Shown here: in pieces, positions 32,474 through 48,557 of the stretch
Numbering within the stretch: position 1 is the first letter of the stretch
How the letters are laid out: every line of letters starts with the position of its first letter
Assembly (NCBI GenBank): GCA_016125385.1
Contig: WGLV01000022.1
Span: 1 to 64,000 of the forward strand
Source: a bacterium
GTDB lineage: Bacteria; Hinthialibacterota; Hinthialibacteria; Hinthialibacterales; Hinthialibacteraceae
Length of the DNA: 64,000 nt
Direction of reading: 5' to 3'
Translations under genes and position numbers: made by a program
The notes under the pieces: generated by a model
Databases searched by the model: none
What the model was told of the DNA's origin: nothing
What the model saw: the letters and a program-made list of their open reading frames with translations, nothing else

Positions 32474-33802
32474 TTAAAATTTCAACCATCGTTTGATTCG
32501 ATGTTTCAAGCCGGATTTCGGCGCTGACTCATCCGCTTGAATCTGCTCGTCCCGCCGGTAATCGAGCAAGACCGGCTGCTTGCCGAAATCGCCGCTGTGC
32601 CGTGGATTCGAACACCAGTCAAGCAAAGGCCCCACCGTGTGAGGAAACGTGTATAACTCTTCAAAAATGTCTCTCGCCTGCCGGGCCAGCGTTTCCAGTT
32701 TTTCAGGATGATTCGCGGCGAGAATCAACTCGCTGGCCAGTAGTTCGGGCGAGCGCGGCGGCGCGGTGAGAACCGCCCCTTTGTAAAACAGAATCTGGCT
32801 GATTTCCGTAGCGAGGGTTGTCAGAATGGGCACGCCGCGAGCCATGAATTCAGTGATTCGGTTGCGCGCGCCGATCAGGCTTTCCGCGCAAACCAGATCG
32901 GCGTTGATGCCGAGGTGCGCTTCGGTAAAACAGGTCTCCAGTTCATCGCGCGAAACCCAGCCGCGCAGGTCGTAGCGGTCGCGGTAGGGCGAGGCGTTGA
33001 CCATCGCCTCGAAGCGGGGAAACGTCTTTTCGTCATGGCCCGGAATCGCGCCGCCGGTGCTGAGAAATCGAATGCGCGGGTCGCGCTTCATCGCGAGATC
33101 CAGGCCGAGAAACAGCGTGTCGACGTCGCACCAGAGGTTGTATCCGCCGCAGAAAAATACGGTGAATGGATCCTCTTTTTTTCGCTGAATTTCGCGAAAC
33201 GGCGTATTCGGGTCCCACGCGATGGGAATGGTCGAAACCAGGTCTTCGCCGAATGTGTGTTGATTGAGTCGTCCCGCCGCCCCCAGTTCGCCCAGCGTCG
33301 CCATGCGCTGGCGTTCGGAGGTCACCGAAAAGCGGTCGGCGCGAAAAAGCACCGGGCGGTGAATATTCCAGAAATGGTGCAGGTAGCCCGCTTCATCGTA
33401 ATGATAGGCCTTCGCCTGCGCCTCGCCCATCGGGTAGCCGTGTATGTCGGCCCAGAAAGGCAGATCGCCCGCCACGCGCGCCGCCCGGCTGGCCGGGTAG
33501 TCGCAGGCGCCGATGACGGCGTGGGGCTGGTGTTTTTCGATGATGGCGCGCAGATAGGCGTCGTCGGCGAAACAGCGCGTTTCATGACAGCGGTAGTAGG
33601 TAAGCCGCTCGCGCGTCTGAATCTCTTCGTCCGGCTCGTGTTCATCACCGTGGCCGGTGATGCGCATGCAGACCAGAATGACCTCGTGCCCGTGGTCGAG
33701 CAGCGGCTTGGCGAGATGCCAGGCGCGGTTGCCGCCCGCGTGAAACTTCTGCGAGTCTTCGATGGAAATTGGACCAATGCCGAGAATGAGGATACGCTTC
33801 AT
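32474..33802 (-). CDS. Glycosyltransferase, GT4-like
   Basis: 442 residues. It begins RILILGIGPISIEDSQKFHA and GGNRAWHLAKPLLDHGHEVI, a GT-B N-terminal Rossmann with a glycine loop. The second half contains FTVFFCGGYNLWCDVDTLFL, RIRFLSTGGAIPGHD, LRGWVSRDELETCFTEAHLG and EFMARGVPILTT, the usual nucleotide-sugar-binding region of family 1/4 transferases. It would add sugars to surface polysaccharide or glycolipid. It overlaps recO by four bases (ATGA) and is co-transcribed with it; with the other transferase beyond the tRNA it makes a small glycan locus. Confidence 0.75.
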   Translation of the reverse strand: MKRILILGIGPISIEDSQKFHAGGNRAWHLAKPLLDHGHEVILVCMRITGHGDEHEPDEEIQTRERLTYYRCHETRCFADDAYLRAIIEKHQPHAVIGACDYPASRAARVAGDLPFWADIHGYPMGEAQAKAYHYDEAGYLHHFWNIHRPVLFRADRFSVTSERQRMATLGELGAAGRLNQHTFGEDLVSTIPIAWDPNTPFREIQRKKEDPFTVFFCGGYNLWCDVDTLFLGLDLAMKRDPRIRFLSTGGAIPGHDEKTFPRFEAMVNASPYRDRYDLRGWVSRDELETCFTEAHLGINADLVCAESLIGARNRITEFMARGVPILTTLATEISQILFYKGAVLTAPPRSPELLASELILAANHPEKLETLARQARDIFEELYTFPHTVGPLLDWCSNPRHSGDFGKQPVLLDYRRDEQIQADESAPKSGLKHRIKRWLKF

Positions 33803-34593
33803 GGTCCGGGGAGCTCCTCCGGGGGCGATGCGGCGCCGGTTTCGAGCGACGCCTGATGATGGCTTATCTTATCAAAGAAAAGCGATGCCCGCGACTGCCG
33901 CCCCGCGTGATATTCGAGGTGCAGTTGTATCAGCCGTTGAATCTCGCGGCGCTGCTGAGTTGAGAGCCGTACATTGGGCGGATCGGCCGCGCGCGCGATC
34001 TGGCGTAGCGACATCACCGACCCGGCGTGCAGTGTTTCGCCGCCTTCACAGGCGTCGGCGCGGATCACCCCGCCTTCCGCCGCGAGGTAACGCCACGCGG
34101 GCGACTCGGTGGCGCCGGTGCGCGGACACCGGAAAATTTCCGGCTCCAGCCCGCCCATCCTCAGCAGCCGCCACTGGTAATAGATGAGGTCTTCGGCGCG
34201 CGGCTCACGCTCGTTCCAGCGTGACAGCGCCCCGGTCAACAGATGCCACACCGCCTGATCCGAACTGAAATCCTCGCTGAGAAAGTCGATCCACTCCGCC
34301 AGGCAGGAGGCGAACGCAAGACGGTTGAGATCGGTCTGGATGGTGCGGTACGACTCGATCAGTGATCCCTGGGTCAGCGTCCAGATATCCTGATCGCGGG
34401 TTTTGGCGTAGAGCACGGCGTGCAGTCGGTTGAACGGCTGGGTGACGCCCGCCATGCGGCTGGAGGTTTTTAACACGCCGCGCGTGGAGGCGGCGATCTT
34501 GCCGTTCTCGCGGGTAAACAGCGTAAGGATGGCGTCGGCGTCGCGCGACCGGCGCCGTCTCAGTACGACGGCTTCAACGTGATGTAAAGGCAT
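33799..34593 (-). CDS. recO: DNA repair protein RecO
   Basis: 264 residues. The OB-fold N-terminus has EAVVLRRRRSRDADAILTLF and TRENGKIAASTRGVLKTSSR, the standard RecO start. The helical part has LIESYRTIQTDLNRLAFASC. The C-terminal zinc site is damaged: CPRTG has lost one Cys of CxxC and a later Cys pair is a lone DACEGG. RecO loads RecA with RecR on SSB-coated DNA; many RecO proteins lack a full zinc finger, so function can persist. It precedes a glycosyltransferase with an ATGA overlap. The 870-base non-coding region with the tandem array lies upstream. Confidence 0.85.
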   Translation of the reverse strand: MPLHHVEAVVLRRRRSRDADAILTLFTRENGKIAASTRGVLKTSSRMAGVTQPFNRLHAVLYAKTRDQDIWTLTQGSLIESYRTIQTDLNRLAFASCLAEWIDFLSEDFSSDQAVWHLLTGALSRWNEREPRAEDLIYYQWRLLRMGGLEPEIFRCPRTGATESPAWRYLAAEGGVIRADACEGGETLHAGSVMSLRQIARAADPPNVRLSTQQRREIQRLIQLHLEYHAGRQSRASLFFDKISHHQASLETGAASPPEELPGP

Positions 34594-34693
34594 GGCTTGT
34601 TTTTATTGATTCATCTTGGTTCGGGATGAATCCATTGTATCGCATCGTCATGGTATGTGCGATTGACCTGCCCCATTACCAGAAAATCATAAA

Positions 34694-34809
34694 GTACTAA
34701 AAAAGCGAAAACGCGGCACAATGAAAAGTACAGTTCGAACCGTGGCGTAGGCGGTGAAAATCATAAGGCAACATGATTTTAACCACGTCTGCTGAAAAAA
34801 AGAAATCTG
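34694..34809 (+). repeat. Array unit 1 (diverged copy)
   Basis: The central palindrome carries one mismatch (ACAGTTCGAACCGT at 34730-34743). The hairpin arms 34753-34764 and 34773-34784 have one G-A mismatch. The tail (about 34786-34809) is A-rich and unlike that of copies 2 and 3. Confidence 0.85.
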
Positions 34810-34924
34810 GTACTAAAAAAGCGAAAACGCGGCGTAATGAAAAGTACGGTTCGAACCGTGGTGCAGGCGGTGAAAATCATAAGGAAACATGATTTTCACC
34901 CCGTCTTCTAACAGCAGAACTCTG
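34810..34924 (+). repeat. Array unit 2
   Basis: Perfect 14-base palindrome at 34846-34859. Perfect 12-base hairpin with arms 34869-34880 and 34889-34900, loop AAGGAAAC. GTACT at the head and AGTAC at about 34843-34847 could pair and enclose the GCGAAAACGC mini-hairpin. Confidence 0.88.
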
Positions 34925-35040
34925 GTACTAAAAAAAGCGAAGACGCGGCGTAATGAAAAGTACGGTTCGAACCGTGGTGCAGGCGGTGAAAATCATAAGG
35001 AAACATGATTTTCACCCCGTATTCTAACAGCAGAACTCTG
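34925..35040 (+). repeat. Array unit 3
   Basis: Nearly identical to unit 2: one extra A in the A-run, GAAGACGC for GAAAACGC, and CCGTATTCT for CCGTCTTCT. Perfect palindrome at 34962-34975. Perfect hairpin with arms 34985-34996 and 35005-35016, same 8-base loop. Confidence 0.88.
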
Positions 35041-35056
35041 GTACTAAAAAAGCGAA

Positions 35057-35099
35057 AACGCCGCAGACTCGGAATCATCGAGACTGGCGGCGTTTTTTT
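35057..35099 (+). terminator. Intrinsic terminator made from the partial fourth repeat
   Basis: AACGCCGC (35057-35064) pairs with GCGGCGTT (35087-35094). Inside, AG/CT and CTCG/CGAG extend the stem around loop GAATCAT. T-run 35093-35099 follows. The 5' arm is the head of the truncated repeat, so the array transcript would end here. Confidence 0.8.
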
Positions 35100-35467: not shown

Positions 35468-36394
35468 ATGCAAAATTCCGCCTCGAACGCGGCCTCGCAT
35501 CCATCCTGGCTCGACTACTGGGAACTCTGCCGCCCTTTCACTCTGCTGGCTCCGTTTATCGGTTTCGTCGCCTTCGCGCTGGCGGGCTGGAGCGGTCTTG
35601 AAGCCGCAGGTGCGGCTCAGGCGCTGCCGCCCATTCTGATGGGCGCCCTGGCGGCGGCTTGTCTCAACGCGGCGTCCAACATCATCAATCAGGTTTATGA
35701 CCTTGAGATCGATCGCGTCAACAAACCGGCGCGCCCTATCCCGTCAGGCCGTGTCAATCCTGAGGCGGCGCTCAAGGCGAGCGTCATCCTGTACGCCGCT
35801 TCCATCGCGTTGGCCTGGGCGGTTGGGGTGCAGTTTTTTGTCATCCTGCTCTTTACCGTGTTTCTGACTTACGCCTATTCGGGACCGCCGTTTCGCACCA
35901 AGCGCTCGTGGCTCTGGGCCAATCTGACCATCGCGTTGCCGCGCGGCTGTTTGCTGGTGGTGGCGGGCTGGACCGCCCTGCGCGACGCATGGAATCCGGA
36001 GCCGTGGATTCTGGGCGCGGTGTTCGGGCTGTACATCTTTGGCGCGGCGACCACGAAAGACTTCGCCGATATCCGGGGCGACGAGCAGGGCGGGTGCATC
36101 ACGCTGCCTGTGCGTTTTGGCGTGAGGCGCGCGGCGTGGATGATCTCGCCGTTTTTCGTTCTTCCGTGGATCGTGTTATTCGCGGCGGCGGGGATGGGCT
36201 GGCTGAGCGGAAGCCGCACCGCGTTGATGGCGCTGGCGGCGATCCTGAGCGTCTGGGGGGCTTACGTGGCGTACCTGATTCTGCGCCGCCCCGATGAACT
36301 CGCCACCGAATCGAACCACGTCTCCTGGAAACATATGTACCTCATCATGCTGGTGGGGCAGTTAGGTTCCGCGGCGGCGTATCTCATCCGCTGA
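35468..36394 (+). CDS. UbiA-superfamily prenyltransferase
   Basis: 308 residues from the ATG at 35468; the frame is open further upstream, but that part has no membrane or family character. Eight or so hydrophobic helices. First Asp motif NQVYDLEIDRVNKPARPIPS (about 77-96; NxxxDxxxD), second DFADIRGDEQGG (about 198-209). This is the chlorophyll synthase/DGGGP synthase-like branch of UbiA, which joins an isoprenoid diphosphate to an aromatic, chlorin or glycerol acceptor in the membrane. The N- and C-terminal parts do not let me choose between menaquinone-type and lipid substrates. The start lacks a clear ribosome site. No operon partner. Confidence 0.8.
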   Translation: MQNSASNAASHPSWLDYWELCRPFTLLAPFIGFVAFALAGWSGLEAAGAAQALPPILMGALAAACLNAASNIINQVYDLEIDRVNKPARPIPSGRVNPEAALKASVILYAASIALAWAVGVQFFVILLFTVFLTYAYSGPPFRTKRSWLWANLTIALPRGCLLVVAGWTALRDAWNPEPWILGAVFGLYIFGAATTKDFADIRGDEQGGCITLPVRFGVRRAAWMISPFFVLPWIVLFAAAGMGWLSGSRTALMALAAILSVWGAYVAYLILRRPDELATESNHVSWKHMYLIMLVGQLGSAAAYLIR

Positions 36395-48426: not shown

Positions 48427-48557
48427 CGACGCGATTTTCAGATTGCTGGGTATCTGATTTGAACCTTGAAATGTCTGGCGAAACTCACAAGAGAAACATG
48501 GGGTTCGCCGCACTCAGTCCGGATTGCATCAGGCGATAAAAATGACTGGGGGAGATT

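Follow-up and report, generated by a model that had tools for sequence, protein, structure and literature searches.

The head-to-tail repeat array at positions 34694-35061 of the window (the whole stretch of 64,000 nucleotides that was analysed) most probably consists of decayed members of a nonautonomous, MITE-type family of 114-bp elements, one diverged copy of which was duplicated in tandem. MITEs are short (less than about 600 bp), noncoding, dispersed elements with TIRs, and their termini are typically shared with an autonomous source of transposase. The family to which we assign the array units is likewise short, noncoding, intergenic, and present in multiple dispersed copies. It has inverted termini with sharp ends, for which the left arm of the array units is too diverged to be judged. 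The family is an ordinary kind of bacterial repeat, similar to MITE, ERIC, and RUP elements, and the array does nothing demonstrable for the host.

Layout of the array

Tandem Repeats Finder (TRF) and the sequence itself confirmed the three copies at 34694, 34810, and 34925 and the partial copy at 35041 that had been described in a sequence-only reading of this DNA. The units match one another at 92%, with about 97-98% identity between copies 2 and 3 and about 86-87% between copy 1 and either of the two. The partial copy corresponds to GTACTAAAAAAGCGAAAACGC, after which the sequence diverges. We set the unit boundaries (34707-34821, 34823-34936, and 34939-35052) by homology to the dispersed family, which makes 'GTACTAAAAAA' the right terminus of a unit instead of its beginning. 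The features of the locus are as follows.

34682-34692, + strand: hairpin 5' arm GAAAATCATAA, putative remnant of a further unit to the left of the array (exact 11-mer match)
34694-35061, + strand: tandem array, period of 116 bp, 3.2 copies (TRF)
34707-34821, + strand: unit 1, a full-length but diverged element (R1 model, 48.6 bits, E 3e-6 for the whole genome)
34753-34784, + strand: central hairpin of unit 1, with one arm mismatch and one loop change (sequence, column differences)
34823-34936, + strand: unit 2 (R1, 67.1 bits, E 4e-10)
34869-34900, + strand: central 12-bp hairpin of unit 2, loop AAGGAAAC (pattern search)
34939-35052, + strand: unit 3 (R1, 63.5 bits, E 2e-9)
34985-35016, + strand: central 12-bp hairpin of unit 3, loop AAGGAAAC (pattern search)
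35041-35061, + strand: truncated fourth unit of 21 bases, comprising the right end at the junction and the first left-end bases (TRF, sequence)
35054-35097, both strands alike: terminator-like GC-rich hairpin (RNA folding, z -4.5 on the + strand and -4.6 on the - strand)

The array is located between the divergent genes recO and ubiA, in an intergenic region of 874 bp, and we found no convincing ORF in its interior, in agreement with the noncoding character ascribed to it previously. A perfect 14-bp palindrome is present in copy 2 (34846-34859) and copy 3 (34962-34975). The earlier statement that every copy carries this palindrome and a perfect hairpin thus holds for copies 2 and 3 and fails for copy 1, in which the palindrome (34730-34743) and the hairpin arms each contain one mismatch. 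The hairpin and palindrome of unit 1 are decaying. The 11-mer GAAAATCATAA occurs in the window only at 34682-34692 and in the three units, so that the array is probably bounded by the remnant of a deleted unit on the left as well. The presence of fragments at both ends suggests that the array was once longer and has since been eroded.

A dispersed family of 114-bp elements

When the array unit was used as a query against the genome, only weak and partial matches at the hairpin region were obtained. In the sequence at these places, the similarity runs on to both sides of the hairpin. A consensus assembled by hand from the weak matches detected 42 places in the genome, the best of which was 86% identical over 113 bp, and its match to the core of the array unit had a blastn E value of 3e-13. 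A covariance model (R1) constructed from 24 dispersed copies, with those in the window left out, detected 78 places in the genome at E<=0.05, including the three array units at full length and one additional place in the window.

48427-48544, + strand: very old single copy of the family, in an intergenic gap (R1, 44.7 bits, E 2e-5 for the whole genome)

The family consensus is 114 bp long and has TA at each end; its imperfect inverted termini measure about 26 bp, and the 12-bp hairpin in its middle has the loop AAGGAAAC. The left terminus is TATAGCGGTTGTCAGAATTACGTTCG and the right terminus, read inward, is TATATTTGTTGCCAAAGTTACGTTCAG; the 26-bp termini can be written as TA(K)AGCGGTTGTCARAA. 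Copies of the young subfamily aligned end to end yielded the consensus TATAGCGGTTGTCAGAATTACGTTCGTATTGGACCTTGGTACAATCGCCGAAAATCACAAGGAAACGTGATTTTCGGCACGGTTAATCTGAACGTAACTTTGGCAACAAATATA. The consensus forms an imperfect palindrome with an end-to-end fold of -44 kcal/mol, and its ends are sharp, with information of 1.5 and 1.3 bits inside versus 0.3 and 0.2 bits outside. TA is the first dinucleotide in 22 and the last in 19 of the 30 best copies, and the flanks contain no longer direct repeat; from the TA at both ends of most copies, we infer a TA duplication at insertion. Identity of the copies to the consensus ranges from 92% down to under 60%, which argues for prolonged activity of the family and one younger burst.

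No tandem copies were found elsewhere among the fetched family places. The proposal of a satellite-like mobile element is therefore supported with regard to mobility, given the dispersed family and its inverted termini, and wrong with regard to the satellite-like character, the tandem arrangement being confined to one locus. Copies truncated to the left half were seen at L117:1594-1649 and L118:1998-2054, the former shortly upstream of an apparent tmRNA gene.

None of 76 examined copies overlapped a gene called on the basis of coding potential, in DNA that is 87% coding. The copies occupy divergent (31), codirectional (36), and convergent (8) contexts, which account for 38, 51, and 11% of intergenic length, respectively. 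The gene contexts are what intergenic length alone predicts, and the copies are tolerated passengers, not placed regulators. In a first ORF-based look, older copies seemed to lie immediately upstream of co-oriented genes; with coding-potential calls the counts came to 21 versus 15, and the idea was dropped. A candidate promoter within the element (TGGTACAAT) was also rejected, being lost in old copies and in the array units (TGGTGCAGG).

Relation of the array units to the family

The array unit is about 50% identical to the consensus in the outer arms and 85% identical in the core. Taken by itself, the left arm gives no significant alignment (P 0.08-0.11), and the right arm is a borderline case (P 0.003-0.08); the homology between array and family rests on the middle 47 columns together with the right arm. 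With arms so diverged, the unit could represent a hairpin core embedded in other sequence. The match to the family extends past the hairpin (ACCGTGGTGCAGGCGG versus ACCTTGGTACAATCGG), and nowhere else in the genome is there a copy of the outer arms of the units.

The three units group as a single clade (SH-aLRT 100) on a stem branch of 0.41, and of the 97 columns in which they all agree, 38 depart from the family consensus. This single clade with its long stem and shared departures indicates that one copy was multiplied in situ after it had diverged. We propose that a transposase acting in trans would recognize the termini and insert the elements at TA, and that the elements would multiply in bursts, persist only in the gaps between genes, and undergo neutral decay. 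At the recO-ubiA locus, one old copy would have been duplicated head to tail, possibly by replication slippage or unequal crossing-over, with the 116-bp period corresponding approximately to one element length, and the end units would have been eroded afterwards. A search for the DDE_3 (IS630-type) transposase domain, which covered that transposase type, found none in the 77 contigs of the assembly, and none of the additional terminus-like sites that we read had a right end or belonged to a complete element. This negative result weighs against the MITE-type interpretation. The helpers of MITEs are often lost or unidentified.

Relatives and known repeat families

Among 13 other genomes of the class, R1 gave seven matches in one sister genus, one marginal match in one further genome, and none in 11 genomes, with the genomes lacking matches serving as a negative control. 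Genus G001 contains about 40 matches of an element whose termini (TAGAGCGTTTGTCAAAAATATGTGCG) are related but whose interior differs, 18 of them readable as full copies; a few hairpin-type copies are present in this second genus in addition to the other-interior element. One copy with TIRs and hairpin was found in G002 and one TIR-bearing copy in G004. Shared termini with exchangeable interiors are the expected product of a transposase acting in trans. The two sister genera, with termini shared, interiors swapped, and separate bursts, offer a useful case of how elements of this type diversify without a visible helper. In many G001 copies (L187-L208), a nested 19-bp palindrome (CCTGCCTGCCGCAGGCAGG) is either present or absent at the same internal position.

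The exact core pattern was found in none of 84,980 species genomes or IMG/VR, in scans that may leave out the genome of origin itself, and the consensus had no match in phage or plasmid collections. A search of Rfam (Rfam 15) at gathering and relaxed thresholds detected nothing but one tRNA in the window, and no match for the repeat unit; the remaining hits were sub-threshold chance matches. One of the rejected candidates, MIR1520, scored 27 bits against a cut-off of 53 bits and reflects the long hairpin only.

The family is apparently undescribed, with RUP and ERIC having been compared by description. ERIC inserts at TA, and TA is also found at the insertion sites of Nezha and Correia-type MITEs. 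RUP (repeat unit of pneumococcus) resembles the window family in its size of 107 bp, its approximately 100 copies per genome, its TIRs in a tight end-to-end fold, and its AT richness relative to the host, but it has a candidate helper in IS630-Spn1, whose TIRs match (PMC3049150), whereas none was found here; RUP also belongs to another host lineage, and we claim no sequence similarity. ERIC (enterobacterial repetitive intergenic consensus), at 127 bp (PMC10969869), is likewise an intergenic imperfect palindrome of similar length, with copies that number from tens to hundreds and differ in age; it differs in its host, and the window family possesses a separate 12-bp hairpin in the middle and one tandem locus. 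Nezha and Correia-type MITEs (PMC10969869) share with the window family the form of a noncoding mini-element with TIRs, but no parent insertion sequence was identified for the latter, and its TA duplication is inferred. The layout had been thought to belong to no named class; MITE-type intergenic repeats such as ERIC, RUP, Correia, and Nezha have just such a layout. The odd array is explained as the tandem form of a lineage-wide family of mini-transposons, and the consensus and R1 can be used to annotate this family. For general biology, the result is ordinary.

The central hairpin and alternative interpretations

The central helix (helix 5) has 88% of its cells paired, a value biased upwards in old copies because R1 finds these partly by way of the hairpin, and 70-73% of cells are paired in the outer, terminal helices. 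Double changes occurred at 7 of the 11 pairs of the central helix, including G-C/C-G, C-G/U-A, and G-C/A-U. In G001, the fourth hairpin pair is changed from G-C to A-U. In one copy (L092:1501-1614; G000:C33:26350-26463), the loop is inverted, reading GTTTCCTT instead of AAGGAAAC, with the arms intact. These pair changes indicate that the palindrome itself has been maintained or restored, which could reflect a function in transposition, repair-driven copying between the arms, or selection on DNA or RNA structure. Bare TIR elements do not require a kept hairpin, and its upkeep therefore counts against the MITE-type interpretation.

REP/RAYT systems comprise a palindrome of 20-40 bp with a GTAG/CGTC-type tag and a RAYT (Y1) transposase. 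It is conceivable, though we consider it unlikely, that the central hairpin is the mobile unit of such a REP- or REPIN-like system, moved by a single-strand (Y1/RAYT) transposase with the outer arms as passengers. Such an origin would fit the hairpin being the best conserved part, with pair changes on both sides, as well as the inverted loop within intact arms and the preservation in the array of the core but not the arms. In younger copies, however, the boundaries at 1 and 114 equal the core in sharpness and conservation, and the G001 family shares the termini, not the hairpin. REP and BIME sequences (PMC3733652, PMC2817692) are also conserved intergenic hairpins that are sometimes clustered, but REPs are 20-40 bp long (PMC3733652), a length exceeded by the 114 bp of the window family with its own termini, and the array is arranged head to tail, not in alternation.

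It is very unlikely that transcription of the array yields a multi-hairpin RNA, either a regulator or a protein sponge, that ends at 35097. The strong hairpins, the terminator-like stem at the end, and the 874-bp divergent intergenic region would be compatible with such an RNA. The truncated fourth copy had been read as the 5' arm of a terminator: the stem at 35054-35097 is indeed strong (-23.3 kcal/mol on the + strand), but the repeat contributes only the base of the 5' arm (AAAACGC), and a simple terminator scan did not report the hairpin. Given that the stem folds equally well on both strands, it provides no evidence for the plus-strand transcription that had been deduced from it, and promoter-like sites were near chance (2 versus 0.9 expected). 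Single units fold only moderately better than shuffled sequences (z -1.2 to -2.6), with values of -3.1 and -4.7 for young dispersed copies. The decay of unit 1, the lack of an Rfam match, the absence of positional bias of dispersed copies relative to genes, and the nonconservation of the recO-ubiA neighbourhood in relatives also argue against such a transcript, and the regulatory RNA or sponge suggested earlier finds no specific support. Copies elsewhere and covariation, two signs whose absence, together with that of a transcript, the sequence-only reading would have taken to mean a local duplication, both exist, and they point to a mobile repeat family, not to a dedicated RNA gene.

The compensated pair changes, the G-C to A-U exchange in G001, and the one loop inversion are the basis for a further view, that the hairpin is under selection and the array, domesticated from the mobile repeat, forms an expressed multi-hairpin RNA or a platform for protein binding; we regard this as highly improbable. 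Purely local duplication of ordinary intergenic DNA, with a short hairpin shared elsewhere by chance or convergence, would agree with the weakly alignable outer arms that lack other genomic copies, but is scarcely credible and already disfavoured by the whole-genome search, given that the core match lies well beyond chance expectation (blastn E 3e-13 with the consensus; R1 E 4e-10), the similarity goes past the hairpin, and the 116-bp period is close to the element length of 114 bp.

In relatives, the genes downstream of ubiA are kept and recO was not found beside ubiA, and there is therefore no empty site at that position. The divergent recO-ubiA pair around the array (33799-34593 and 35468-36394) is not conserved in the sister genera and may mark a rearrangement breakpoint. 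For the UbiA neighbour protein, the nearest named record is from a MAG labelled Candidatus Omnitrophota SURF_12, with 71% identity.
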